From positions 1-20,283 of IMG/VR virus record IMGVR_UViG_3300028384_000335: a DNA stretch of 20,283 nt. One strand, 5' to 3'. Position numbers and translations under genes: made by a program. The notes beneath the pieces are model-generated. The model saw only the letters and a program-made list of their open reading frames with translations. It ran no database searches and was not told where the DNA came from. Source of the DNA: a virus. How positions within the stretch are numbered: the stretch's first letter is position 1; every line of letters begins with the position of its first letter. Positions 3,691 to 16,753 of the stretch are shown here, piece after piece.

Positions 3691-4317
3691 ATGACAAAAG
3701 ACAATCATAGCCGATTGGAGGCACTTGGGTGCTTCCAAAACGAACAAGGAAACTTTATCTGTAACGATAAGAAGAAAGTAGCAATATTCGGATCATCGAG
3801 AACCAATCCAGAAAGCGGACTCTACAAATCCATTGAGAAGATGAGTTCGAGCCTCGCCGATGATGGATGGGTTGTTGTTACTGGCGGTGGCCCTGGTTCC
3901 ATGGAAGCTGCCAATAAAGGTGCATCCGATGTATGTGTAGATGGAGATATCTGTTCAATCGCTCACGCAATCTACTTACCATTTGAGGAAGAAATCAATC
4001 AGTACGTTCAATCCCACACAAAACACGATGAGTTCTATTCAAGACTTCAGACATTTGCTCAATGTGATGCCTTCATTGTCACCCCAGGAGGAATTGGAAC
4101 TCTTCTGGAAATGGCACTCGTATATCAACTCATACAAGTGTCCCACCTCGATAAGAAACCCGTCATTTGCGTGGGAAGAATGTGGAGAACCCTCAGGCAA
4201 TGGATCGAAGAGGAAATGTTAGATTCTGAATTCCTAAATCATGAAGAAGTGAAACTCATTCACTATGTTGACCGCTTCTCAGAAGCAAAAGCCCTACTCG
4301 ATGGATTAGTAAAATGA
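3691..4317 (+). CDS. LOG/SLOG-family Rossmann nucleotide-binding protein (possible NMP phosphoribohydrolase)
   Basis: This 208-aa protein matches the LOG (lysine decarboxylase-like, YgdH/YpsA-related) fold. Visible motifs are a first beta strand and loop (KKVAIFGSSRTNP, residues 28-40), a Gly-rich loop GGGPGSMEAA (65-74), and the family signature PGGIGTLLE (132-140). In LOG enzymes this signature holds catalytic residues that split the N-glycosidic bond of a nucleoside 5'-monophosphate. An Arg in FYSRLQTF (near 118) is at the usual place of the conserved LOG Arg. Related SLOG domains act as nucleotide sensors in defence systems, so a ligand-binding or sequestering role is an alternative. The gene overlaps the glutaredoxin-like gene by ATGA (4314-4317), implying co-translation. 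Confidence 0.8.
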   Translation: MTKDNHSRLEALGCFQNEQGNFICNDKKKVAIFGSSRTNPESGLYKSIEKMSSSLADDGWVVVTGGGPGSMEAANKGASDVCVDGDICSIAHAIYLPFEEEINQYVQSHTKHDEFYSRLQTFAQCDAFIVTPGGIGTLLEMALVYQLIQVSHLDKKPVICVGRMWRTLRQWIEEEMLDSEFLNHEEVKLIHYVDRFSEAKALLDGLVK

Positions 4318-5719: not shown

Positions 5720-5890
5720 ATGTCTACTCCTCACTTTGAAAGTTATCAGGACTTCTGCTTCTGGTGTTACATGCGTGGTGTGAAACCAACTCTGGAAGGT
5801 TGGCACTCCAGCAACACTAATGTGAGCAGTCGTCCTGTCATCATTGAAGACATTCAGGAGCAAGTATTCCTAACAGAGGATGCTGAATAA
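5720..5890 (+). CDS. 56-aa protein, unknown function
   Basis: ATG at 5720 opens 56 codons ending in TAA at 5888-5890. The first half is aromatic and Cys-containing (YQDFCFWCYMRGVKP), with C13 and C16 in a CxxC-like spacing, and the second half is acidic. It lies alone between two late boxes, which supports it as a late gene. No function can be assigned. Confidence 0.6.
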   Translation: MSTPHFESYQDFCFWCYMRGVKPTLEGWHSSNTNVSSRPVIIEDIQEQVFLTEDAE

Positions 5891-5893
5891 ATA
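5886..5893 (+). promoter_or_regulatory. T4-type late promoter box (AATAAATA)
   Basis: AATAAATA includes the TAA stop of the 56-aa gene and lies 20 bases before the ATG at 5914. It is the likely late promoter for the 5914-8266 operon that includes the kinase-like gene. Confidence 0.6.
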
Positions 5894-5913: not shown

Positions 5914-6324
5914 ATGGACTTCTCTAATTTTCTAAAATCAGCTGTACCTCCTCTGTATGAAGCAGAAGGTAAAGATCCCACGTGCCCCAAAGGATTTAAG
6001 TGGGATTCCGCTGCTGGTTGCTGTATGCCTCACACTCCAAAAGGGGAAGAGAGTTCCAATCCTGGAGATCAGGCACCAGCATTTACTCCAAACTATAATG
6101 TGTGGGGAGCGACAGGAATTGATGGTGATGGATGGGCAATTGGCGTTGAAGAATCCTACACACAAGGTCCAGATGATTATGAGAGATATGATAAGGAAAA
6201 GAAAGAATTTGAAAAGAAAGATCGCAGAATGAAATATGGAAAGTCTGGCGATTCAACAGGTCTGAAGCCAGGTGAAGTGAAAAGATTCAATAAAGTAACT
6301 GGGCGGTGGGAGTCGAACAAATGA
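5914..6324 (+). CDS. Candidate internal head protein with capsid-targeting-like N-terminus
   Basis: The 136-aa product begins MDFSNFLKSAVPPLYEAEGK. The M-x-F-x-x-F-L pattern followed by L-Y-E-A resembles T4 capsid-targeting peptides and the T4 prohead protease site (L/I-x-E, cut before A or G), so residues 1-16 may be removed in the prohead. A Cys cluster follows (C24-PKGFKWDSAAG-C36-C37), then a Gly/Asp/Trp-rich part and a basic, Lys-rich end (KKEFEKKDRRMKYGKSG). A GTG at 5902 would extend it by four residues, but the ATG at 5914 fits the leader pattern better. It overlaps the next gene by ATGA (6321-6324). Function is unknown. Confidence 0.65.
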   Translation: MDFSNFLKSAVPPLYEAEGKDPTCPKGFKWDSAAGCCMPHTPKGEESSNPGDQAPAFTPNYNVWGATGIDGDGWAIGVEESYTQGPDDYERYDKEKKEFEKKDRRMKYGKSGDSTGLKPGEVKRFNKVTGRWESNK

Positions 6325-7157
6325 AGAGATTGAGCGATTTCATCAAAGAAGATGAGAGTAAAGCAAAGAAAGAAGCTCTAAGACTCGGACTGAAATATAA
6401 AGGATTCGGTAATTGGGTCGACCCTGCCACAGGACAGACCTATAGAACCGTTGAGGATCAATTGGTGCCGGTTGAGGGAGAAGATTCAGCCGATATGGCC
6501 GATGTCGGTGCCGATATCGGAAAGGAACCCCGAACCTCTGGAATTACTCCAGGAAATGTCCCAAAGAATGTACAGAATGTCCTAAAGGCTCCGGATCCGG
6601 GAGAGGCAAAATCTCCTGGATTGATTGGTTGGTATGCTGGTCCTGACGGAGATACTTTGGTTGGTGACAACCCAACTAATCTTGGCACTCCTGATGATTC
6701 ATTCGAGAGAAAACGCAACAACCCGAACTGGGTAGCTGGACCTGAAGGATCCAACTTCACAAACGTCGACACAGGGAAGGTAGTCTCTGGTGAGTGGCCA
6801 GCGTGGAAGCCAATGGTTGGCGAATCTCTGAATGAAATCAATGCTGATTGGCCAGGCAAATCACAAGGTAAACCTTTGATTCCTGATTCTGCTCCTCCTG
6901 TTCCTGATTCTGAGAATCCAGCAAAGCAGAGAATGAAGAAGATTATGGGTAAGAAACCCGCTTCTGAAAGAACAAACAGAGAAGCTCAGAGTGCTCTGAA
7001 TAAAATGAGAGCAAATCCAGATCAACAGACTGTTTTTGGAAGGCAACTTGCTTCCATGATGAAGATTGCTAATCGTCCGGCTGCTCCAGATCCTTTTGCC
7101 ACTTATCCACAACCACCTGACACGCTTGACATCGAAAGAAACGAGAGAATGAGATGA
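6321..7157 (+). CDS. Candidate internal head protein with WVDPxTG module
   Basis: This 278-aa protein starts MKRLSDFIKEDESKAKKE, close to the T4 internal-protein leader MKTYQEFIxEA, with I-K-E a possible processing site. Residues 17-52 (EALRLGLKYKGFGNWVDPATGQ..RTV...LV) form a module that occurs twice more in the 554-aa protein at 8561. The rest is Pro/Gly/Asn-rich and probably extended, with a basic helix near 205-250. The ATG at 6321 overlaps the preceding stop; an upstream in-frame GTG (6306) is less likely. Its own stop overlaps the kinase-like gene's ATG (7154-7157), so both are probably made together. No enzymatic motif is visible. Confidence 0.65.
   Translation: MKRLSDFIKEDESKAKKEALRLGLKYKGFGNWVDPATGQTYRTVEDQLVPVEGEDSADMADVGADIGKEPRTSGITPGNVPKNVQNVLKAPDPGEAKSPGLIGWYAGPDGDTLVGDNPTNLGTPDDSFERKRNNPNWVAGPEGSNFTNVDTGKVVSGEWPAWKPMVGESLNEINADWPGKSQGKPLIPDSAPPVPDSENPAKQRMKKIMGKKPASERTNREAQSALNKMRANPDQQTVFGRQLASMMKIANRPAAPDPFATYPQPPDTLDIERNERMR
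6369..6476 (+). repeat. WVDPxTG module, copy in the 278-aa protein
   Basis: Encodes residues 17-52, pattern A/E-x-LGL-x(4-5)-G-x-WVDPxTGQ-x(2)-RTV-x(3)-LV. Two related copies are at 8648-8758 and 8843-8956 in another gene, so this is a shared protein module and not a DNA repeat. Confidence 0.6.
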
Positions 7158-8266
7158 ATAAGATTGCCAGAGGTTTGGTTCAGGATCCAGATTATGACAT
7201 GGGAGAAATAGATTTTGATGATGATGGTTATTTGGCAGAAGGTGCATTTGGTTCTGTTTATCTGAGACCAGATGGAAATGTGGTGAAGAAAGGAATGATT
7301 GGTCCTGATGAACTCAAGGCACTTCATGCCATGAAAGACAATCCTCGATTCCCCACTCTTATCAATGCGAAGTTTGAAACTCCCTTCAAGAACTTCTCTG
7401 CTGAGTACAACAACCCAATGAATGTTGATAATGAAAGAAGGGGTACTGCAGGTTATTGGGATCCTGATGATGCTTCAGACTTCGAAAGAAAGTTTCCCGG
7501 TGCAGAAGGAACTTATGCAATGACTCCAGCGAAGGGTCAGGAACTCTTCAGTGTTTTCGAAAGTCTGGATGATGAGACAAAGGATAAAGCAATGAGAAAC
7601 TTCTGGAAAGCTAGAGGTGATCTTCATAAGGCAGGTTTCTCTCATAATGACATGCACGGAGGAAACATCTTTGTGGATCCTGAAACTGGAGAAGTGAACA
7701 TCATCGACCTTGGGCTCGCAAAAGAAAACCGCAGATCCGCACTGATGGAAGCTCTGGGAGGAATGGATTATGAGCAGGGTGAGGATTATCAGCTAAGTGG
7801 GCAACTCTCAGGTGCTCAACTCAGCGATAGAATGAGAGATCTCTTTGATAAAAACAGAAGTAAAGTGGAGCAGATGATTATGGATAACATGCCAGCTGAA
7901 GCTTCAGAGTACGATGATTATGATGAGGATGAAGATTATTCGGAGCAGTTTGAAAGAGGCACCGAAGCACTTCAGTACCTTCTTGGTGGTGGAATCAGAA
8001 TGGAAAACTTTATGTTGGATAAGCTGGGGGAGGACATTCCATTCCTAAAAGATGATAAGAACGTTGAGGAATTGATTAAAGTTCTTTATGATGAGGTTGG
8101 TCAATCCGAACTGGCAGATAGAATGTCAGATGCCTTCACAAAGAGGCAAAATGACAGCAAGATTATCAGAGCAGCGGATAAGATTAGAAAGAGCAAAGGA
8201 CAGGCACCAATTGATGTGAAGAATCGTAACGTTATTCCTCCAAGGTTCATGGACTTTGACGATTGA
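7154..8266 (+). CDS. Protein kinase-like protein
   Basis: The 370-aa protein has the main kinase-fold landmarks in order: a Gly-rich loop AEGAFGSVYL (28-37), a Lys in VVKKG (45-46), a candidate alpha-C Glu (E53), a catalytic loop H164-N-D166-MHGG-N171, and a metal-binding D185-L-G in NIIDLGLAK. All catalytic residues (Lys, Asp, Asn, Asp) are present, so it is likely active. The HND-x-HGGN form recalls RIO, ABC1 and aminoglycoside-kinase-like groups more than typical Hanks kinases. The C-terminal half (about 195-370) is charged, helical and unassigned. It is translationally coupled to the 278-aa gene. Targets may be host proteins, by analogy with T7 gp0.7, but the sequence does not show this. 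Small-molecule phosphorylation is an alternative. Confidence 0.8.
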   Translation: MNKIARGLVQDPDYDMGEIDFDDDGYLAEGAFGSVYLRPDGNVVKKGMIGPDELKALHAMKDNPRFPTLINAKFETPFKNFSAEYNNPMNVDNERRGTAGYWDPDDASDFERKFPGAEGTYAMTPAKGQELFSVFESLDDETKDKAMRNFWKARGDLHKAGFSHNDMHGGNIFVDPETGEVNIIDLGLAKENRRSALMEALGGMDYEQGEDYQLSGQLSGAQLSDRMRDLFDKNRSKVEQMIMDNMPAEASEYDDYDEDEDYSEQFERGTEALQYLLGGGIRMENFMLDKLGEDIPFLKDDKNVEELIKVLYDEVGQSELADRMSDAFTKRQNDSKIIRAADKIRKSKGQAPIDVKNRNVIPPRFMDFDD

Positions 8267-8275
8267 TGTTATAAT
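8246..8275 (+). promoter_or_regulatory. Extended -10 promoter
   Basis: TGTTATAAT (TATAAT at 8270-8275) lies 24 bases before the ATG at 8300. At an 18-base spacing the -35 would be TTCATG, which is poor. A TTGACG at 8256-8261 is too close (8 bases) to act as its -35. Confidence 0.6.
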
Positions 8276-8299
8276 GAGAGCAAACTAAAGGAGACACCA

Positions 8300-8530
8300 A
8301 TGAAACGTTTAGACCAGTTCTTCGAATCAGAAGACGACAGAAAAGTAAGACCAACAAAAAAGAATGAGGGCAAGGATGACAAAAAGTTTATCGCTCTGAT
8401 GGATCAGTATAAGATGCTTCGCCGTCAGAAAGACAGAACAGAATCAGCTAAAGTACTCAAGCAAGCACTCGAACTTTCCAAAGAAGGAGACGTCTCTGAT
8501 AAAGCAAAGATGGCTGCTGCTTATCTTTGA
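8300..8530 (+). CDS. Small charged protein, unknown function
   Basis: The 76-aa protein has a clear AAAGGAG Shine-Dalgarno (8287-8293) before its ATG. It starts MKRLDQFFESEDD, again similar to the capsid-targeting pattern (F-F-E-S), and is otherwise highly charged and helical (YKMLRRQKDRTESAKVLKQ). Because it has an early-type promoter, packaging is less convincing for it than for its neighbours. The end is followed two bases later by a perfect late box for the next gene. Confidence 0.65.
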   Translation: MKRLDQFFESEDDRKVRPTKKNEGKDDKKFIALMDQYKMLRRQKDRTESAKVLKQALELSKEGDVSDKAKMAAAYL

Positions 8531-8531
8531 T

Positions 8532-8539
8532 TATAAATA
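8532..8539 (+). promoter_or_regulatory. T4 late promoter box, exact TATAAATA
   Basis: TATAAATA is identical to the T4 late consensus and lies 21 bases before the ATG at 8561, directly after the preceding stop. It is the best late box in the window and likely drives the 554-aa and 737-aa genes. Confidence 0.75.
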
Positions 8540-8560
8540 AGAGAAAGTATACTGAATGTA

Positions 8561-10225
8561 ATGTCTGAGTCGCGTTGGAGAAATTGGGTCGATAATTCGG
8601 TCAAAACAAATCGCGGTTTCAGAACCTTTATGGAAGGCCGCGCTGCTGAAGAGGCAAGGAAAGCAGGTCTCGTTTCCGACTTCTATGGTCGATGGAAGAA
8701 TCCAGAAACCGGTGAAGTTATCGCCAAAACAGTCGGAGATAGACTTGTCTATCTTGATGCTGATGAAGTGTCGAATCCAGGAGCAAGAGATCCTGAAGCG
8801 GATATGGGAAACCCCACCAGTGCTGCTAGTGGTCTCAGTCCTGCTGACAGAGCAAGAGCTCTTGGTCTTCAATCAGATGGTTCAGGTGGTTATGTCGACC
8901 CACAGACCGGCCAGGTCGCTGCCAGAACAGTGAATGGTGAGTTGGTATTCTACGACAGTCGCGGAAGCGGTGGTGCGGTTTCTGATGGTGCTGGCGGACA
9001 GGCGATGGTTCAGTCACAACCATCATGGAAAGATCCTGTGACTGGTGTCATCATCGTTCCTCCCGCAAAACCAGAGACTCCTTATGAATATGAGGCCATT
9101 CCTGCCGCTGTACCAGCACAGTCTCCTATGGGTTTCCAAAGCTTCTTGGACCAAAAGAGAAAGGAGATGTATGATAGTCAGGCTGCTGCGGCAGGGGCGG
9201 CGCCTCCTCAGGAGGCAGAAGCAGAATTAGAGCAAGAAACAGAGGCAGAAGAGAGTCCAGCGATGGCTAACTATCGCGAAGAGATGCAGGATGTCATTGG
9301 TTTGGCACGAGAAAGTGGAGACGAAGAAAAAATTATACAAGCCGATAAAGCAGAAAAGTTAATCAATAGTGATGAATTTAAGAAAGAAGTTCAAGAATAC
9401 TTTGAGCTCGCACCAGAAGATAAGCAAGAAGACATTCTAGACCTAGCCATAGAACTTGCAATTGTTACTGCCAAAAATGAAAGAGCCGAAGAATTATTAA
9501 AAGAAATCGATGACAATGATTCTTTAAGTGAAGAAGAGAGAAAAAAACAAACTAACGAGTTACTCGATAAACGGGATTATGACTTCCCTCACGTACTCAA
9601 GAAAGAAATTGAGGATATTGTCGGAGAGTTTCGATCTTCCGATCCGGAGGTGGATGAATATCCAGAAGAAGAAAAGAGGTATGATGGTGACAAGATATTC
9701 TACGATTTGAAATCTGTCAATCCATATGGATCTGATTTGGCTCCCTTTGATTATGATGATGTGGAAGTTGAAGCTAAAAACATTCTCAAAGATAATGGGA
9801 ATCCTTCTGGTATCAAAGGTCTCACTCGTATTGATTGGTATAACCAAAAAGAAGGAGAGATTCCTAACAGTGAAAAGAAAAGTAACGCTTTCGATGCTCT
9901 GAAGGTCTGGAGAAGACAAGTGCTTCCCGATTTGAAACCTGGAACTGTCGTTTACAATGCACCTATGGAAGGTGGAAGAGGCGATAATGCAAGAGAAAGA
10001 ATCTACACACTCGCAGGATTTGGCCCTCTGGATAAAGAGAAAGGTGTGCAACTTGGTGTTGTTGTCCAAGATGAGCAGGGCAAAAACAAGGTTGTACCTA
10101 TTGGAGAAGAGGAAGGAGGAAGAAGAAGGAGAAGAGTTGCAGAATCCATTATGTGGATGTTGGATGATGAAATAAATAACTTCGAAGAATATCGATTAAT
10201 GGAAAGTCTCTTTCATGGATTATAA
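8561..10225 (+). CDS. Modular late protein with two WVDPxTG repeats and the GGRGxNARER module
   Basis: The 554-aa protein begins with a charged, Trp-containing segment and has F-M-E-G at residues 23-26, a candidate prohead protease site. Residues 30-66 and 95-132 are two copies of the WxDPxTG module also found in the 278-aa protein, with a partial third copy (SWKDPVTGVIIV, 155-166). A Pro/Ala/Glu-rich linker and an acidic helical region (about 210-400) follow. Residues 444-514 (DALKVWRRQVLPDL, PMEGGRGDNARERIY, AGFG) match the module of the 776-aa protein. A run of five Arg lies near the end. It has links to two other proteins of this window and a perfect late promoter. Function is unknown; a virion or injected role is inferred. 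It overlaps the 737-aa gene by 11 bases. Confidence 0.75.
   Translation: MSESRWRNWVDNSVKTNRGFRTFMEGRAAEEARKAGLVSDFYGRWKNPETGEVIAKTVGDRLVYLDADEVSNPGARDPEADMGNPTSAASGLSPADRARALGLQSDGSGGYVDPQTGQVAARTVNGELVFYDSRGSGGAVSDGAGGQAMVQSQPSWKDPVTGVIIVPPAKPETPYEYEAIPAAVPAQSPMGFQSFLDQKRKEMYDSQAAAAGAAPPQEAEAELEQETEAEESPAMANYREEMQDVIGLARESGDEEKIIQADKAEKLINSDEFKKEVQEYFELAPEDKQEDILDLAIELAIVTAKNERAEELLKEIDDNDSLSEEERKKQTNELLDKRDYDFPHVLKKEIEDIVGEFRSSDPEVDEYPEEEKRYDGDKIFYDLKSVNPYGSDLAPFDYDDVEVEAKNILKDNGNPSGIKGLTRIDWYNQKEGEIPNSEKKSNAFDALKVWRRQVLPDLKPGTVVYNAPMEGGRGDNARERIYTLAGFGPLDKEKGVQLGVVVQDEQGKNKVVPIGEEEGGRRRRRVAESIMWMLDDEINNFEEYRLMESLFHGL
8648..8758 (+). repeat. WxDPxTG module, first copy in the 554-aa protein
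   Basis: Encodes residues 30-66, with EARKAGLVSDFYGRWKNPET, then G-x-VIAKTVGDRLVYL. It aligns with residues 95-132 of the same protein and 17-52 of the 278-aa protein. Confidence 0.6.
8843..8956 (+). repeat. WxDPxTG module, second copy in the 554-aa protein
   Basis: Encodes residues 95-132, with RARALGLQSDGSGGYVDPQT, then GQVAARTVNGELVFY. The conserved core is LGL, G-x-[WY]-V-D-P-x-T-G-Q, R-T-V, L-V. Confidence 0.6.
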
Positions 10226-12428
10226 GAAATTTATATCCGAAGCACCTAGAGTCTATCCTGCTTCTCCACCCAAATCAAAAGAATTAAATCCCACTCAGAA
10301 AGCAGTCAAGGATGCTGGAGATGTTGGTAAGAGAGAAATCGTTCAAAAAGCTACTGGGAAGACAGTTTCTAATAAAAACTATGGTAGAGAAGCGAGAAAA
10401 CTTACCACCAAAGGCATCGATACTCAGTGGGATGATGGACTGAGTAGAGAAGTAGGAAAAACATATGGAAGTGACGTATCTCCACAGGATACGGTTCCCG
10501 ATACTCCTGCTCCATCATTCAAAAAAGATGATGACTCTGAGAGAGATCGACTGGTTGATAGGGCACTCACACTGACTGCTCCAGATGCTATGAAGCAGAA
10601 GAAAAGAGAAGCGGTATCGGATCGTCAAGGTGCTGGAGCTTCTCCAGAATTGCAATCCGATTTTGAGGGGATTGTGAAAGCTCTTCAAGCTAAAAGAGAA
10701 GGTAAACCTGTAGATCCGAAATATGATTATGAAGATCTAGAACTTTCTCAAAAACAAAAAGAGTTAGGTGCGAGAGCTAAAATATCTGCAGCGAAATTGA
10801 CAGATCAACAAAAAGATCTTGTCAGGGGTATCGAATATAAAGATGGTGAGCCTGTAGACCAAGAATCGGCGCCAGAGAGAATGGATCGAGCTGCTCGAGC
10901 CATAGGACCACTGGGTGCGTTGACCGGAGACAAGAATGTTGATGATGAGATGAATAAGCTCATCCGATCTGCACAATCCGGAAATGTTAGAGCGCAACTT
11001 AAGTTAAGAGATCTTGAAATTGATGATCTCGATGACATCATCTACACTCGCCATTCCCAACAACCAGAAGCGTCCAATCTACCACGAGTTTTAGATGCTG
11101 ACGCGATTTCGACTCTCGGTGCCCTCACCAGCGACAAAAGAGAAGGTAGCAAATTGAAGAGAGACTCACAAGAGATCTCATCACAAAAGAAAAAGGTTGG
11201 AGAGAATCCACTAAACCCAAGTCCATCAAAGAGAGATTATGAGAATCTAGATGATCGTCTTCTTAAAAAGAATTATGAATCCGGAAAGCTAACGAAAAAG
11301 GAATACGACAAACAACTCAAAATCAATAAAGCTCTTCTGGGAGATGGCACAGAACCAAATGCAGAAGCGCTTCAAAAAGAAATCTTTACTCACGAAGTTG
11401 ATGATGATGCCATCGATCAATTCATGCAAATGTATGCTGGCGCCGAGCTGTCAAATGTCGGTGGCCGCGGCCTCGACCCAAAAAGAATGAAAGCGGCATA
11501 TGGTGGAGATTTAGAAAGTGAATTAGAATCCCTTGGCCTTTCTCCTAAGGACATTGAAGAATTCAAAGTTGAAGGAGCCCCCGATGGTGTGTGGAATCTC
11601 GCCGCCATGCAGAAGGCAAAAAATGCAGACATAAGAAAACTAGTTCCAATCGCTAATCAGAATCGACTGAAAGGTGTGATTGAAACTTACCTAAAGCAGG
11701 GTGGAAGAGATGCTTATGCCAGACACGAGGGTATAAGGTCAATTCTCGACATGAACTTGGAACATATCCATAGTTTAGATGCTGGTGGATATGACCACCC
11801 AGATAACTGGTCATGGGCAGGAGAAGAACTCAATAAGTTTAAGAATGCAAGAAACTTAATCGCTCATACTCAAAGTAAATTAGATGATGAGAAAGAAGTA
11901 CAAGTACCACAAGAATATCAAAGAAGTACTTTCTCAGATATAACACAGAAAGCGAAAGCAGCAGAAACAAAAAAAGAGCAACAGAAATGGAAGGATTCTT
12001 ATTCCGATTTCTTTGGAGGAAAGAGTCCAACTATTGGTGCTGGTGGAATTCCTGCTGCTTCTTATCTAAATTTTGATGCTGATACTATACAATCATTCAG
12101 ACAGAAAGCTATGGATGAGTTTGGAGTGGACCAAGAAGTAGCAGATTCTATGTTCCCCACACCAAAAGAAGTAGTTACTCGCAAAGGATTGTTGGATGGA
12201 CTTGATGACTATGAAGCAGCTAGATTGCAAAAAGAAAAGGAAAGAGTTCTAAGAGACACTGGATTGGAAAGACTTAAGAAATCTCTCGGATTTAGAAGTC
12301 AAGATGATGCAGCTGCTAGTGTAGCAGGCAAAGAATTCTTGAGAAGATTAGATACTTGGGGAGTGGAACCACCAACAGAAGACCAACAACCACCGGCACG
12401 CAGAAGAAGAGCAAGGGGTGCATTCTAA
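10215..12428 (+). CDS. Candidate internal head protein with HNH endonuclease-like motif
   Basis: The 737-aa protein starts MDYKKFISEAPR, very close to the T4 internal-protein leader MKTYQEFIxEA, with I-S-E-A as an ideal prohead protease site. A long, charged, mostly helical region follows, with a short repeated motif LGALT[GS]DK (near residues 234 and 304) and a SHOCT-like segment (LLKKNYESGKLTKKEYDKQL, near 348-367). At 516-544 lies an HNH-like pattern: E516-H517-I, GGYDHPDN531, then N540-KFK. The H-to-N spacing of 14 and N-to-N of 9 fits HNN-type nucleases. The tail is Arg-rich (RRRRARG). The ATG lies within the upstream gene, with GGAAAG 9 bases before. If packaged, this could be a DNA-cleaving or DNA-processing protein delivered to the host; that is inference. 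Confidence 0.7.
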   Translation: MDYKKFISEAPRVYPASPPKSKELNPTQKAVKDAGDVGKREIVQKATGKTVSNKNYGREARKLTTKGIDTQWDDGLSREVGKTYGSDVSPQDTVPDTPAPSFKKDDDSERDRLVDRALTLTAPDAMKQKKREAVSDRQGAGASPELQSDFEGIVKALQAKREGKPVDPKYDYEDLELSQKQKELGARAKISAAKLTDQQKDLVRGIEYKDGEPVDQESAPERMDRAARAIGPLGALTGDKNVDDEMNKLIRSAQSGNVRAQLKLRDLEIDDLDDIIYTRHSQQPEASNLPRVLDADAISTLGALTSDKREGSKLKRDSQEISSQKKKVGENPLNPSPSKRDYENLDDRLLKKNYESGKLTKKEYDKQLKINKALLGDGTEPNAEALQKEIFTHEVDDDAIDQFMQMYAGAELSNVGGRGLDPKRMKAAYGGDLESELESLGLSPKDIEEFKVEGAPDGVWNLAAMQKAKNADIRKLVPIANQNRLKGVIETYLKQGGRDAYARHEGIRSILDMNLEHIHSLDAGGYDHPDNWSWAGEELNKFKNARNLIAHTQSKLDDEKEVQVPQEYQRSTFSDITQKAKAAETKKEQQKWKDSYSDFFGGKSPTIGAGGIPAASYLNFDADTIQSFRQKAMDEFGVDQEVADSMFPTPKEVVTRKGLLDGLDDYEAARLQKEKERVLRDTGLERLKKSLGFRSQDDAAASVAGKEFLRRLDTWGVEPPTEDQQPPARRRRARGAF

Positions 12429-12434
12429 TCTCCA

Positions 12435-12463
12435 TTTACCACTCTCCTTTTTTGTGTTATAAT
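12435..12463 (+). promoter_or_regulatory. Sigma70-like early promoter for the methyltransferase
   Basis: TTTACC (12435-12440), a 17-base spacer and TGT-TATAAT (TATAAT at 12458-12463) form a promoter with an extended -10, 23 bases before the ATG at 12487. No late box is seen, so the gene is likely expressed early. Confidence 0.65.
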
Positions 12464-12486
12464 AATGCCGTGACAATGCTGCCTTT

Positions 12487-13341
12487 ATGTCTTTAGAAAT
12501 CAATAAAGTTCATCTGATGTCTAACATCGATGGGACTACCAAGATGGACCCAGAGTCTGTCAATCTGGTGGTTACATCTCCACCTTATGATAATCTACGT
12601 GAATACAATGAATCATCCACTTGGAACTTTGATGTGTTCAAGCAAGTGGCAGATGGTCTCATTCGTGTTTTGAAACCGGGTGGAGTGATTGCATGGAATG
12701 TTGCAGATGCCATTGTCGAACTTCACAATAAACAAGGAACTTCCAGAACAGGCACATCATTTCGTCAGTGCCTTTACTTTATGGATCATGGATTAAACTT
12801 CCACGATCATATCATTTACGAAAAACCTGCTGCTCGATTCTCTGCCTCTGCCTCCGGTAAGCGTTACTCTGATGTGTTTGAGTACGTTTTCATTCTTTCC
12901 AAAGGAACTCCGGACCACATGCAGGTGATTGCTGATAAAAAGAACAAAGGTTTCGGAACAACCTTCACCAAAGATGGAGGAAGGAATAAAGATGGCACTC
13001 GTAATCGAGATGCTGAGAGGAAACAGATTGCTGTGAAAGAGTTTGGTGTTCGCCATAACATCTGGAGAATCAATAACTCCTGTGGTGCACACGACATGCC
13101 CAAGGAAGCTTACGAACATCCCGCACTGATGCCTCAGGAACTGGCTGATGATTTGATTCGTTCTTATTCTCGCGAGGGTGATTTGGTGTTGGACCCATTC
13201 ATGGGCTCTGGTACCACTGCACGAATGGCTTATAAAAACAATCGCGATTACATTGGTTTTGAAATCGATCCCACTTATCACAAACTCTGTGAAGAAATCA
13301 ATGGGTCTGTAATGAATTCTGTGTTTGATAAGATTCTCTAA
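12487..13341 (+). CDS. DNA methyltransferase, N4-cytosine/N6-adenine beta-class
   Basis: The 284-aa protein transfers methyl groups from S-adenosylmethionine to an exocyclic amino group of DNA. The catalytic motif TSPPYDN (30-36) comes first and the SAM-binding motif LDPFMGSGTTA (235-245) near the C-terminus, the order of the beta class (the N6_N4_Mtase group, like many modification enzymes). SPPY is more usual in N4-cytosine enzymes than in N6-adenine ones, but does not prove specificity. The last part, NRDYIGFEID, is also typical. No restriction gene is next to it, so it is solitary. Likely roles are protection of phage DNA from host restriction or regulation. It has an early promoter, and its stop is embedded in the next gene's late box. 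Confidence 0.9.
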   Translation: MSLEINKVHLMSNIDGTTKMDPESVNLVVTSPPYDNLREYNESSTWNFDVFKQVADGLIRVLKPGGVIAWNVADAIVELHNKQGTSRTGTSFRQCLYFMDHGLNFHDHIIYEKPAARFSASASGKRYSDVFEYVFILSKGTPDHMQVIADKKNKGFGTTFTKDGGRNKDGTRNRDAERKQIAVKEFGVRHNIWRINNSCGAHDMPKEAYEHPALMPQELADDLIRSYSREGDLVLDPFMGSGTTARMAYKNNRDYIGFEIDPTYHKLCEEINGSVMNSVFDKIL

Positions 13342-13344
13342 ATA
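13337..13344 (+). promoter_or_regulatory. T4-type late promoter box (TCTAAATA)
   Basis: TCTAAATA contains the methyltransferase stop codon (13339-13341) and lies 29 bases before the ATG at 13374. Confidence 0.5.
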
Positions 13345-13373
13345 ACTAAAATACTACAGGAAATGGAAACCCC

Positions 13374-14240
13374 ATGAAGAACTTCGGTGCATTCTTTGAG
13401 GAAGCAGATGAAGCGTCCTCCATGCAACCCCCAAACAGAGTCTCTGATGATATTGTAACTACCTTTGGTAGACACAATCCGCCTCACTTGGGTCACAAAC
13501 TAACCCTAGATTATGCTAATGATGTTGCCAACAACATTGGGGACGGAGATACTCCTGCAGATCAAAGATTCTACACTTCCAGGTCTCAGGATCCTAAAAA
13601 GAATCCTCTTCCCTTTCAACTGAAGTTGGATCATCTGAAGAGAATGTTTCCAGAGCACGCAAATAAGTGGGATGATGACGATAATGTAAGAACTGTACTG
13701 AATGCAGCAACTAAAGCACACGGGCAGGGTTATAAGAACTTCCACTTCATTGGAGGTGGAGACCGTCGACAAGGTATGGAAGACCTTCTACGACGTTATA
13801 ATGGAAACCTCTACGATTTTGATAACATCTATTCACACTCTGCTGGAGAAAGGGATGAGGATTCAGAGGACCCTATTGCAGCACTCAGTGCCTCTGGTCA
13901 AAGGAAATCAGCGATGGGTGGAGACTTTGATTCGTTTCTAGGGGGAATTGGATTAAACGATCAATACACAGAGAACGATGCGAAGGAACTCTTCGAACTC
14001 CTGCGCAGGTTTATGGTGAAGAATGAAGAATTCATTTGGGAAGTGGATCATCGTGGGTGTAGAGATGAAATCCGCGATCGTTATTGTGAAGGGAAACTAT
14101 TCCACCAAGGAGATTTGGTGGAGTCATTGAGCTCTGGATTGGTTGGTAAGGTTCATCGTTGTGGTTCCAATCACCTTATCTGTGTCACAGAAAACGGAAT
14201 TATGTTCAAGAATTTCATTTATGATGTTCGTCCTCTCTAA
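13374..14240 (+). CDS. HxGH cytidylyltransferase-like protein with capsid-targeting-like N-terminus
   Basis: The 288-aa protein begins MKNFGAFFEEADEA, close to the T4 capsid-targeting pattern, with F-E-E-A as a candidate cleavage site. A nucleotidyltransferase domain of the HIGH superfamily follows: TTFGRHNPPHLGHKLTLDYA (29-48) contains H38-L-G-H41, which binds the nucleotide phosphates, and FHFIGGGDRRQGM (about 123-135) fits a later strand and loop. Such domains add NMP to small molecules (CTP or ATP to a phosphorylated alcohol, NMN or pantetheine). The final 50 residues (FHQGDLVESLSSGLVGKV, then LICVTENGIMFKNFI) look like a small beta-barrel (KOW/SH3-like) appendix that I recall from cyanophage proteins. 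Substrate is unknown. It has a late box, unlike the methyltransferase before it. Confidence 0.75.
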   Translation: MKNFGAFFEEADEASSMQPPNRVSDDIVTTFGRHNPPHLGHKLTLDYANDVANNIGDGDTPADQRFYTSRSQDPKKNPLPFQLKLDHLKRMFPEHANKWDDDDNVRTVLNAATKAHGQGYKNFHFIGGGDRRQGMEDLLRRYNGNLYDFDNIYSHSAGERDEDSEDPIAALSASGQRKSAMGGDFDSFLGGIGLNDQYTENDAKELFELLRRFMVKNEEFIWEVDHRGCRDEIRDRYCEGKLFHQGDLVESLSSGLVGKVHRCGSNHLICVTENGIMFKNFIYDVRPL

Positions 14241-14243
14241 ATA
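14236..14243 (+). promoter_or_regulatory. T4-type late promoter box (TCTAAATA)
   Basis: TCTAAATA overlaps the stop of the upstream gene (14238-14240) and lies 22 bases before the ATG at 14266. The ten bases CTCTCTAAAT resemble the box at 13337. Confidence 0.55.
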
Positions 14244-14265
14244 AGAGAAAGGATTAAACTACAAA

Positions 14266-14898
14266 ATGGACTTCCATTCAATTAGAAAACTGAAGGAAAT
14301 CAAATCTCTCAGAGAAGAGATGGTTTCTGATTGGCGCAAAGATTTAGAAATCGCCGACGATAAAGAGTTAGGAGAGGCAGCTTATGTTCCTCCCCCTCCT
14401 CCAGTTCCTGCTGAAGTTCGTCCTGCACCTAAGCAAGGTACAGCATCCAGGGATTTGATTGCTGGTGCCACTGCTGCTTTCTATGCAGATGCTGCTGCTG
14501 AGATGGCAGCCAAAAAGAAGAAAGGTAAGAAGGATGCGAAGAAGCAACCTAAAGTAAGACCTGTATGGAAAGAAGAGCATCTTGACGAAGCAGGTGATCA
14601 TCCTTATGTTGACATCATGCCAGACAGCAATGAAGCAAAGCAAGATGCTAAAGACAAGAAGAAGAAATCAAAGAAAGAAGAAGGCATGAGTGAATCTGTT
14701 TATTCAGATCACATGAGAAGGCAAGAAATGTTGAAGCAGAAGAAACTTCAACCAAGTCAGCAACAGTCAATGGTAAATCTGAGTGACAGATCGGATGCAC
14801 AGGCTGAAAAGGCGGCACGAAGAAAAGAAACTCAATCTCAAAGAAAGCAACTGAATTTGCAGAAGAAGAAACAGAAAAAAGGAGGGTTGATGTTGTGA
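14266..14898 (+). CDS. Lys/Pro-rich late protein, candidate internal or scaffold-like protein
   Basis: The 210-aa product begins with a charged helix (MDFHSIRKLKEIKSLREE), has L-G-E-A at about 35-38 as a possible protease site, then a Pro run (AAYVPPPPPVPAEVRP), an Ala-rich helix and three Lys-rich stretches (AAKKKKGKKDAKKQPK, KDKKKKSKKEEG, KKKQKKGG). A strongly basic, largely disordered protein of this kind would suit DNA binding in the head, but no known domain is visible. The late box at 14236 supports late expression. The end carries GGAGG, which serves the GTG of the next gene (14895), with a GTGA overlap. Confidence 0.65.
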   Translation: MDFHSIRKLKEIKSLREEMVSDWRKDLEIADDKELGEAAYVPPPPPVPAEVRPAPKQGTASRDLIAGATAAFYADAAAEMAAKKKKGKKDAKKQPKVRPVWKEEHLDEAGDHPYVDIMPDSNEAKQDAKDKKKKSKKEEGMSESVYSDHMRRQEMLKQKKLQPSQQQSMVNLSDRSDAQAEKAARRKETQSQRKQLNLQKKKQKKGGLML

Positions 14899-15608
14899 GG
14901 AAATTATTTCGCGAAATGAAGCTCACGCTTCAATCTCATGAAACACTGAATCCAAAACTTTGGAATGATAAAGCAAAGTTAGATCCTGAAGTCTGGCATG
15001 CTCTTAACCGCATTGGTAAAGAGTGGGCTGATTTTGCCAACATCCCAAAGAGTGCCATCAAAGATGTCATTCTGACTGGTGGTAATGCAAACTACAACTA
15101 CACTCCATACTCAGATTTGGATCTCCATTTGGTTGTCGATAAAGACAAAATTGATTGTGAAGGAATTTTAGATGATTATCTTCAATCTAAAAAACAATTG
15201 TGGGCGCTAACCCATGACATCACCATCAAAGGACAACCTGTTGAGCTTTATGCTCAAGATTACAAAGATCCATTCAAAGAGGGTCAGGGAATCTATTCTC
15301 TCCAATCAAATAAATGGCTTCAGGAGCCAACCAAATACGAGATTGATAGGAAGCACCCAGAAGTCATCAGGAAAACCAAAGATTTCATGTATCAAATTGA
15401 TACTCTTATTGATACCAACTCTGATGATCTTGATGCTCTGAAGAAACTAAAAGAAAGAATCAAACTTATGAGAAGAGGCGCCATTGAAAAGGGTGGCGAA
15501 TCTGCACCAGAGAATCTGGTTTTCAAGGAGTTGAGAAACAGGGGATATCTAGATAAACTCTCAAAATATATCAGAGATCTGGAAGATACATCTTTATCAC
15601 TCAAGTAA
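14895..15608 (+). CDS. DNA polymerase beta-like nucleotidyltransferase
   Basis: The 237-aa protein carries the Pol-beta superfamily signature TGGNANYNYTPYSDLDLHLV (61-80): the Gly-Gly turn and the Asp pair D74-x-D76 that binds metal, with a likely third acidic residue in QPVELYAQD. The family transfers NMP to proteins, RNA, or small molecules, and the form seen here is known from memory in T4-like marine phages without assigned substrate. The C-terminus is charged and helical. The GTG at 14895 is chosen because a GGAGG ribosome site ends 9 bases before it and because it overlaps the upstream stop; an ATG at 14916 is an alternative. It is co-transcribed with the Lys-rich protein. Confidence 0.75.
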   Translation: MRKLFREMKLTLQSHETLNPKLWNDKAKLDPEVWHALNRIGKEWADFANIPKSAIKDVILTGGNANYNYTPYSDLDLHLVVDKDKIDCEGILDDYLQSKKQLWALTHDITIKGQPVELYAQDYKDPFKEGQGIYSLQSNKWLQEPTKYEIDRKHPEVIRKTKDFMYQIDTLIDTNSDDLDALKKLKERIKLMRRGAIEKGGESAPENLVFKELRNRGYLDKLSKYIRDLEDTSLSLK

Positions 15609-16552: not shown

Positions 16553-16753
16553 ATGGACCGTAAAGAAGACACAAGATCACTACAAGAAAGACTGAAAAGC
16601 ATCAAAGAAGAGGCTTGCGGTGCTTGTGGTATGTCAGGTGGAGCAGATGGATTCCAAGGGAGTGCAGATGCAGCCGGACCTGTTGCTGGTTATGACCCAC
16701 TTATGAAGGTGTTGGATAAGGTAAGAAAGAAGAAGGATAAGAAAACCAAGTAA
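16553..16753 (+). CDS. 66-aa protein with CGAC motif, unknown function
   Basis: The product starts with a charged helix (MDRKEDTRSLQERLKSIKEE), then ACGACGMSGGADG with a CxxC pair (C22, C25), a Gly/Ala-rich stretch with AAGPVAGYDP, and a Lys-rich end (KVRKKKDKKTK). It has no family assignment. The CxxC could bind metal or be redox active, but two Cys alone are not a zinc site. S-I-K-E-E at 16-20 is a weak match to a prohead protease site. Confidence 0.55.
   Translation: MDRKEDTRSLQERLKSIKEEACGACGMSGGADGFQGSADAAGPVAGYDPLMKVLDKVRKKKDKKTK

Follow-up and report, generated by a model that had tools for sequence, protein, structure and literature searches.

Bacteriophage T4 loads its internal proteins IPI-IPIII into the head by means of a capsid targeting sequence (CTS), the N-terminal 10-11 residues, which end in a protease site and stand in front of variable bodies. 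Mutagenesis of the CTS (Mullaney and Black, summarised in PMC9026906) assigned residues 4 and 7 mainly to targeting and residues 8 and 10 to processing. The T4 head also carries Alt, an ADP-ribosyltransferase that is trimmed by gp21, is ejected, and takes part in the early modification of host proteins, while the polyvalent proteins (Iyer et al. 2017, PMC5512222) are phage-packaged, multi-domain, polymorphic and act on host defence. Virion proteomes of cyanophages have shown kinases and NMNAT-like enzymes since 2010, and whether these were cargo or contamination had stayed undecided. Here we describe a cassette of genes in a virus record of 20,283 bases (IMG/VR record IMGVR_UViG_3300028384_000335, the whole of which is called the window below). 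No longer genome record stands behind it. The genes of the window mark it as a fragment from a T4-like Synechococcus phage of "cluster C", the nearest named relatives by gene content being S-CRM01, S-CREM2, S-B68, S-H34/MC09 and S-N03. We find it very probable that the cassette encodes T4-type head-loaded cargo proteins with a CTS-like tag. A sequence-only reading of the window had proposed such a set of packaged proteins, and it is supported here by the leader, which is conserved apart from the protein bodies and occurs on unrelated enzymes, by the late boxes, and by the detection of orthologues in virions. Genes are named by their first nucleotide, and all window features given lie on the + strand.

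The N-terminus of T4 IPII and IPIII is MKTYQEFIAEA, and the strict rule that we derived from the T4 data reads M-x-x-[FYWLIVM]-x-x-F-[ILVMF]-x-E. Every N-terminus quoted in the sequence-only reading was found in the window at its proposed start. Genes 6321 (MKRLSDFIKED) and 13374 (MKNFGAFFEEA) match T4 in full at residues 4, 7, 8, and 10; the leaders MKRLSDFIKE and MKNFGAFFEE, the latter followed by A, are located at 6321-6350 and 13374-13403. Gene 8300 (MKRLDQFFESE) matches at residues 4, 7, and 8 and has S at position 10. The same three residues match in 576 (MGFFSNFISRA), where position 10 is R, so that its possible leader MGFFSNFISR (576-605), on a protein of 776 amino acids, fits at the targeting positions only. 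In 10215 (MDYKKFISEA) and 5914 (MDFSNFLKSAVPPLYEAE, with the variant leader MDFSNFL) the 4/7/8 match is shifted by one residue towards the N-terminus; the E is present in 10215 as well, and 5914 is without a match at position 10. The leader of 10215, MDYKKFISE (10215-10241), is thus one residue short; in L002, a metagenomic relative, the orthologue starts with MKSLKNFILE, a complete strict leader. In 8561 a leader-like motif, GFRTFMEG, lies internally at residues 19-26 behind an SRW..W extension, an arrangement shared by all orthologues; FRTFMEGR (8618-8641) aligns with GFSSFLKEAE and LRFASFMAEAA of orthologues. Gene 14266 is without a canonical leader, its LGEA sitting near residue 36. Among the weaker leaders suggested earlier, 576 and 8561 stand in these qualified forms, and 14266 does not.

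Divided by function, the targeting feature (hydrophobic or aromatic residue 4 and F at 7) is exact in 6321, 8300, 13374, and 576, shifted in 5914 and 10215, and internal in 8561. The processing feature (hydrophobic residue 8 and E at 10) is present in 6321 and 13374 and, shifted, in 10215, while position 10 fails in 8300, 576, and 5914. The two strict matches in the window compare with an expectation of about 0.01 among roughly 25 genes, an estimate based on about 0.0004 per shuffled S-CREM2 protein.

Two virion proteomes were used to assess the strict rule: that of S-CREM2 (published mass spectrometry, PMC10665884 Table 3), with 52 of 219 proteins detected in virions, 26 of these without a structural or lysis assignment, and that of S-SCSM1 (record annotation). 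Of the 219 S-CREM2 proteins the rule picked five (gp6, gp13, gp14, gp136, and gp154); each of them belongs to the virion set of 52 (Fisher p=6.5e-4) and, within it, to the 26 without assignment. When residues 2-12 of the S-CREM2 proteins were shuffled, a mean of 0.08 matches was obtained and five matches were reached in 0 of 2000 trials; at internal methionine contexts 0 of 850 fitted the strict rule. Two proteins were picked in S-SCSM1, a more distantly related cyanophage: the virion NMNAT ORF91 and ORF30, the latter without virion detection, and for the two phages pooled six of seven leader proteins were in virions vs 94 of 494 others (p=3e-4). When any ATG of open reading frames (ORFs) of at least 40 amino acids was allowed as a start over 150 kb of T4, the rule gave IPII, IPIII, and gp61.1 only. 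The last (54 amino acids; L023:18966-19130, NC_000866, minus strand) starts MKTFKEFIKED and is possibly an unrecognised internal protein. The S-CREM2 five are not fully independent confirmations, as several have their orthologues among the very window genes from which the question arose; gp6 and gp136 have no orthologue in the window. S-CREM2 gp6 (L014:3837-5081), one of the virion-detected proteins, combines the strict leader with an S-adenosylmethionine (SAM) lyase domain (PF23780, E=2e-19) and is a candidate injected anti-restriction enzyme.

The leader was found to be conserved separately from what follows it. In the cytidylyltransferase family of 13374, residues M1, K2, F4, F7, E10, and A11 are invariant across six phages, and the linker behind them varies in length; in the S-SCSM1 enzyme a whole small domain is inserted behind the leader. 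Among metagenomic cytidylyltransferases of cyanophage type, the strict leader is found on 77 of 80, its typical form being MKSFFQFLSEA. In most cases this small domain comes next, with the pattern [GS]DGHGGWYDx.GEFVAKTExGKLKF; we named it the GHG module. Nine orthologues of 8300 have invariant residues 4 (L) and 7 (F), with the processing residues in seven of the nine, and relatives of 5914 keep an N-terminus of the form M[ND][FY]S[EN][FWY]. The conservation of the leader apart from the body, which the sequence-only reading had put forward as a check, was thus seen as an invariant leader before a variable linker or inserted domain, with non-homologous enzymes behind.

The GHG module (helix and four-stranded sheet, about 38 amino acids) is also located behind the leader of the kinase half 6321, at 6363-6476, where a hidden Markov model (HMM) of the cytidylyltransferase N-terminus matches the 6321 protein with E=1e-16, in agreement with alignments. 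Two copies were found in the 8561 protein, at 8642-8758 and 8843-8956; both were obtained as hmmsearch domains, the second also by alignment. The only significant carriers among the 501 proteins of S-CREM2 and S-SCSM1 are gp12, gp14, and ORF91, all virion proteins. A structure model of leader plus GHG, with window and IMG/VR sequences as alignment rows, gave one helix and four strands with a mean predicted local distance difference test (pLDDT) of 72.9, about 87 over the module, the leader being poorly defined. The model had no significant fold match in the PDB; in a viral structure library it matched cyanophage kinase N-termini and, more weakly, cytidylyltransferases and one annotated phage ADP-ribosyltransferase. 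Since the same leader and GHG module precede both a kinase and a nucleotidyltransferase, the combination looks as a transferable tag should. As far as we have seen, it is a shuffled module with interchangeable cargo that seems to be newly recognised.

Virion proteomics of the close relative S-CREM2, likewise named beforehand as a check, gave a positive answer. S-CREM2 gp15, gp14, gp13, and gp12 are the counterparts of window genes 5914, 6321 plus 7154, 8300, and 8561, and gp154, gp155, gp156, and gp160 are those of 13374, 14266, 14895, and 16553. All were detected in virions, with 28 peptides for gp12, 21 for gp14, six for gp156, four for gp15, three for gp154, and one for gp13. None of the six S-CREM2 counterparts of mazG, 4314, 4787, 15640, 16135, and 17280 is in the published virion list. 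The cargo list proposed earlier was borne out through orthologues for 5914, 6321, 8300, 8561, 13374, and 14266; the detected counterparts of 14895 and 16553 come in addition to it. Because gp155 and gp156 were detected without a leader, proteins must also be able to enter the virion in some other way. Window 16553-16753, S-CREM2 gp160, and S-SCSM1 ORF97 form a family of small virion proteins which shares the pattern GFTG..A.EGP.AGYDP with the major capsid protein (MCP), where it lies just downstream of the presumed maturation site. In other cyanophages, kinase-like proteins have been reported in virions of S-CRM01 and further phages, and cytidylyltransferase/NMNAT in those of S-SM1 (PMC3037559) and S-SCSM1 (PMC9602691). 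These enzymes of S-CRM01, S-CREM2, S-SM1, and S-SCSM1, found in purified virions, are orthologues of the window genes. The available parts of the papers on them give no packaging signal.

We defined a late box as TAAATA within 45 nucleotides upstream of a gene. The window has 11 copies of the hexamer on its coding strand and none on the other, and genes 576, 5720, 5914, 8561, 10215, 13374, 14266, and 15640 have it at that distance. The boxes before 5914, 8561, 10215, 13374, and 14266 are at 5888-5893, 8534-8539, 10173-10178, 13339-13344, and 14238-14243, respectively, and that before 576 is located at 552. No TAAATA was found within 45 nucleotides upstream of 6321, 7154, or 8300, so that among the leader genes, most of which had been noted earlier to follow late boxes, 6321 and 8300 are without one. 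A late box precedes 30 of the 52 virion genes of S-CREM2 vs 24 of the 167 others (p=2e-9), including gp6, gp13, gp15, gp136, and gp154. From these boxes 5914, 8561, 10215, and 13374 are predicted to be expressed late. An early-type promoter had been held against the inclusion of 8300. Its S-CREM2 orthologue gp13 has GATAAATA upstream; because this orthologue is late-boxed and was detected in virions, we consider the objection weak and reject it.

The T4 MCP propeptide comprises 65 residues (PMC5694885), the site at residue 65 being FLTE↓A. The leader of S-CREM2 gp154 ends in the identical FLTE↓A and resembles the sites presumed in the MCPs of S-CREM2 and S-SCSM1, LLTE↓A and FLAE↓A respectively, as would be expected if one protease cuts both. 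A prohead protease gene was not found in the window, which is uninformative since the window is a 20 kb fragment; such genes are annotated in S-CREM2, S-B68, MC09, and S-SCSM1.

From these observations we infer packaging in this phage, in which genes 5914-10225 and 13374, together with 10215 and possibly 576, would encode head cargo. The cargo would be made late, with its 10-11 residue leader acting as the T4 CTS does. Binding to the prohead core would go through leader residues 4 and 7, and a gp21-type prohead protease would trim the [ILF]-x-E end at the same kind of site as in MCP maturation. The trimmed kinase, the NMNAT/cytidylyltransferase, the large variable protein, and a possible HNH nuclease would remain in the head with the DNA. 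They would probably be ejected alongside it and act on the host before any phage gene is expressed.

Compared with T4 IPI-IPIII, the cyanophage leader is alike in residues 4, 7, 8, and 10, in its length, in its protease-site end, and in the variable bodies behind it. The T4 proteins differ in being small and without a recognised enzyme domain, whereas the cyanophage cargo consists mostly of large enzymes, often with GHG behind the leader, and its cleavage is presumed from sequence likeness. The comparison with Alt concerns a head-carried, trimmed enzyme; here, however, the enzymes are protein-kinase-like or nucleotidyltransferases, and the Alt N-terminus MELITELFDED fails the strict rule. Polyvalent proteins differ in that no common polyvalent domain was identified in the cassette, where the connection is the leader. 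A search of the open literature on capsid targeting and cyanophages found the T4 review only; subscription papers were mostly outside its scope, and priority is not proven. As far as we have seen, this is a known signal on cyanophage virion enzymes, seemingly unrecognised there before, together with a second common module.

Several observations weigh against head-loaded cargo. Virion detection concerns the orthologues in S-CREM2 and not this phage's own particles, and peptide support is thin for gp13 and gp154. The detection of gp155 and gp156 without a leader counts in the same direction, as does S-SCSM1 ORF30, which has a perfect leader yet is absent from the detected virion proteins. This phage, moreover, has its kinase domain on the leaderless ORF 7154, the leader being on 6321 only; the 7154 product might still be packaged, e.g., through association with the 6321 product. 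Looser rules were tried and rejected: residues 4 and 7 alone were not predictive (5 of 13 in virions, p=0.17), and whole-leader BLOSUM similarity to the T4 internal proteins gave no overall separation of virion from non-virion proteins (p=0.28), virion proteins making up five of the top six in that ranking. Because these rules lose predictive power, we base the claim on all four residues of the pattern together. The S-CREM2 authors also warn that CsCl-purified virions may hold abundant non-packaged proteins, and they left packaged vs co-purified undecided (PMC10665884).

The alternative that survives best accepts that the leader loads proteins into the prohead core and lets them act there, as scaffold, as core, or in DNA condensation, with no ejection. 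In T4 the core proteins gp22, gp67, and gp68 lie inside the head and are broken down there (PMC5694885), and some cargo, S-CREM2 gp136 and gp13, has no recognised enzymatic domain. We nevertheless regard an in-head role as unlikely, since a kinase, a SAM lyase, and a cytidylyltransferase make little sense inside a capsid and T4 CTS cargo is ejected (PMC9026906).

It could also be argued that abundant late products co-purify with virions and share an N-terminus unrelated to packaging, in line with the warning of the S-CREM2 authors and with the low peptide counts of gp13 and gp154. This is quite improbable, as every S-CREM2 protein that fits the rule derived from the T4 mutants was detected in virions, the non-virion enzymes NrdA, NrdB, and primase are missing from the detected list, and the kinase and cytidylyltransferase recur across independent virion preparations. 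Packaging might, alternatively, be real with the GHG module rather than the leader as its signal, every significant carrier in the two phages being virion-detected. We give this very little credence, because four virion-detected proteins, gp6, gp13, gp136, and gp154, carry the leader but no GHG. That the leader is an amphipathic N-terminus arisen by chance, or reflects how these genomes prefer to start translation, as the degenerate cases 14266, 576, and some relatives (e.g., MKSFNHFSEQ in L003) could suggest, is hardly credible given the 0.08 matches from shuffles vs five seen, the unrelated bodies that carry the leader, and the invariance of residues 4, 7, and 10 while the next 20-80 residues vary.

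The genes of the proposed head-cargo cassette are arranged as in related phages. Genes 5914, kinase, 8300, and 8561 were found in every cluster C phage examined and in the metagenomic relatives L002, L003, L018, and L019, and the block 5914-15608 is syntenic with S-CRM01 and S-CREM2. The order in S-CRM01 is nearly identical: mazG, small gene, kinase, short gene, gp12-like, cytidylyltransferase, nucleotidyltransferase, gp61, nrdA. The first cassette gene (5914-6324) encodes a small gp15-like protein, its leader one residue short, which is 40% identical to S-CREM2 gp15 and 37% to its S-CRM01 counterpart (L013:14989). The N-terminal half of this kinase, made up of leader, GHG, and linker, is here an ORF of its own (6321-7157), which aligns with residues 1-146 of S-CREM2 gp14 and with the S-CRM01 kinase. 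It overlaps by ATGA with 7154-8266, which carries the protein-kinase-like domain without a leader and is 40% identical to gp14 residues 386-753. The 7154 protein scores 32.3 bits against Pfam Pkinase PF00069 (cut-off 31.7) over residues 123-206 and has the catalytic-loop and Mg-loop motifs HNDMHGGN...IDLG; a single-sequence IMG/VR scan gave no relatives. The virion kinase is unsplit in S-CRM01, S-CREM2, MC09, S-B68, S-N03, L002, L003, and L018 and forms two ORFs in the window. The split at the ATGA overlap may be natural or a sequence error. The small gp13-like protein with leader MKRLDQFFES (8300-8530) is 43% identical to S-CREM2 gp13.

Gene 8561-10225 encodes a gp12-like protein with a conserved N-terminal part, 27-61% identical to relatives, and a variable C-terminal part that differs by phage; the length ranges from 183 amino acids in S-CRM01 to 973 in MC09. 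It shares with the 576-2906 protein a domain of 90 residues at 46% identity (LPDL..G.V..NAPM.GGRG.NARERIY..AGFG). The second large candidate cargo protein, 10215-12428, has its only detected relative in L002, reached through a neighbouring gene and 32% identical; none was found in named phages or by a single-sequence IMG/VR scan, and a profile comparison with gp12 gave no match. By far the best conserved block vs L002 is the HNH-like motif MNLEHIHSL..GGYDHPDNW..N.FKN (11751-11849). The protein had no match in Pfam, NCBIfam, or PDB sequences and none to an HNH profile, and a single-sequence structure model of its C-terminal half was too poor to use (pLDDT 47). The motif behind the earlier suggestion of an HNH-like protein is thus conserved, but because neither profile nor structure supports HNH the label stays a hypothesis.

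A DNA methyltransferase without leader (12487-13341; Pfam N6_N4_Mtase 1.8e-41) follows and is probably a neighbour rather than a packaged protein. One to three DNA methyltransferase genes often lie directly behind the variable gp12-like gene or 10215, as in L003:7410-8267, L018:7517-9966, L020:12309-13202, and L022:10303-11196; S-CRM01 and L002 have none at that place. Next comes the cytidylyltransferase/NMNAT-like enzyme 13374-14240, which matches PHROG 395 (E=1e-61, residues 23-286). It is followed by the gp155-like protein 14266-14898, 33% identical to S-CREM2 gp155, and by a nucleotidyltransferase-fold protein without leader (14895-15608), 75% identical to S-CREM2 gp156. Upstream of the cassette, 3691-4317 encodes a LOG-family/SLOG-type protein (Lysine_decarbox PF03641, E=1e-18), whose class of fold is tied to nucleotide signalling.

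A wider and decidedly tentative proposal, which we hold to be possible and no stronger, is that a transferable tag ships interchangeable effectors across marine T4-like phages. The effectors may include the kinase, the NMNAT, the SAM lyase, the HNH-like nuclease, and possibly an ADP-ribosyltransferase. The large variable protein may be a polymorphic effector, with the delivery end held constant and the C-terminal end swapped, and the neighbouring methyltransferase may shield the phage genome against a packaged nuclease whose target is the chromosome of the host.

For the cyanophage virion enzymes, a leader matching the mapped signal of T4 supplies a mechanism and allows cargo genes to be listed from sequence alone in abundant viruses of the ocean. 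If head-loaded cargo is the correct reading, cyanophages would act on host proteins and on nicotinamide adenine dinucleotide (NAD) metabolism at injection, before their own genes are read.

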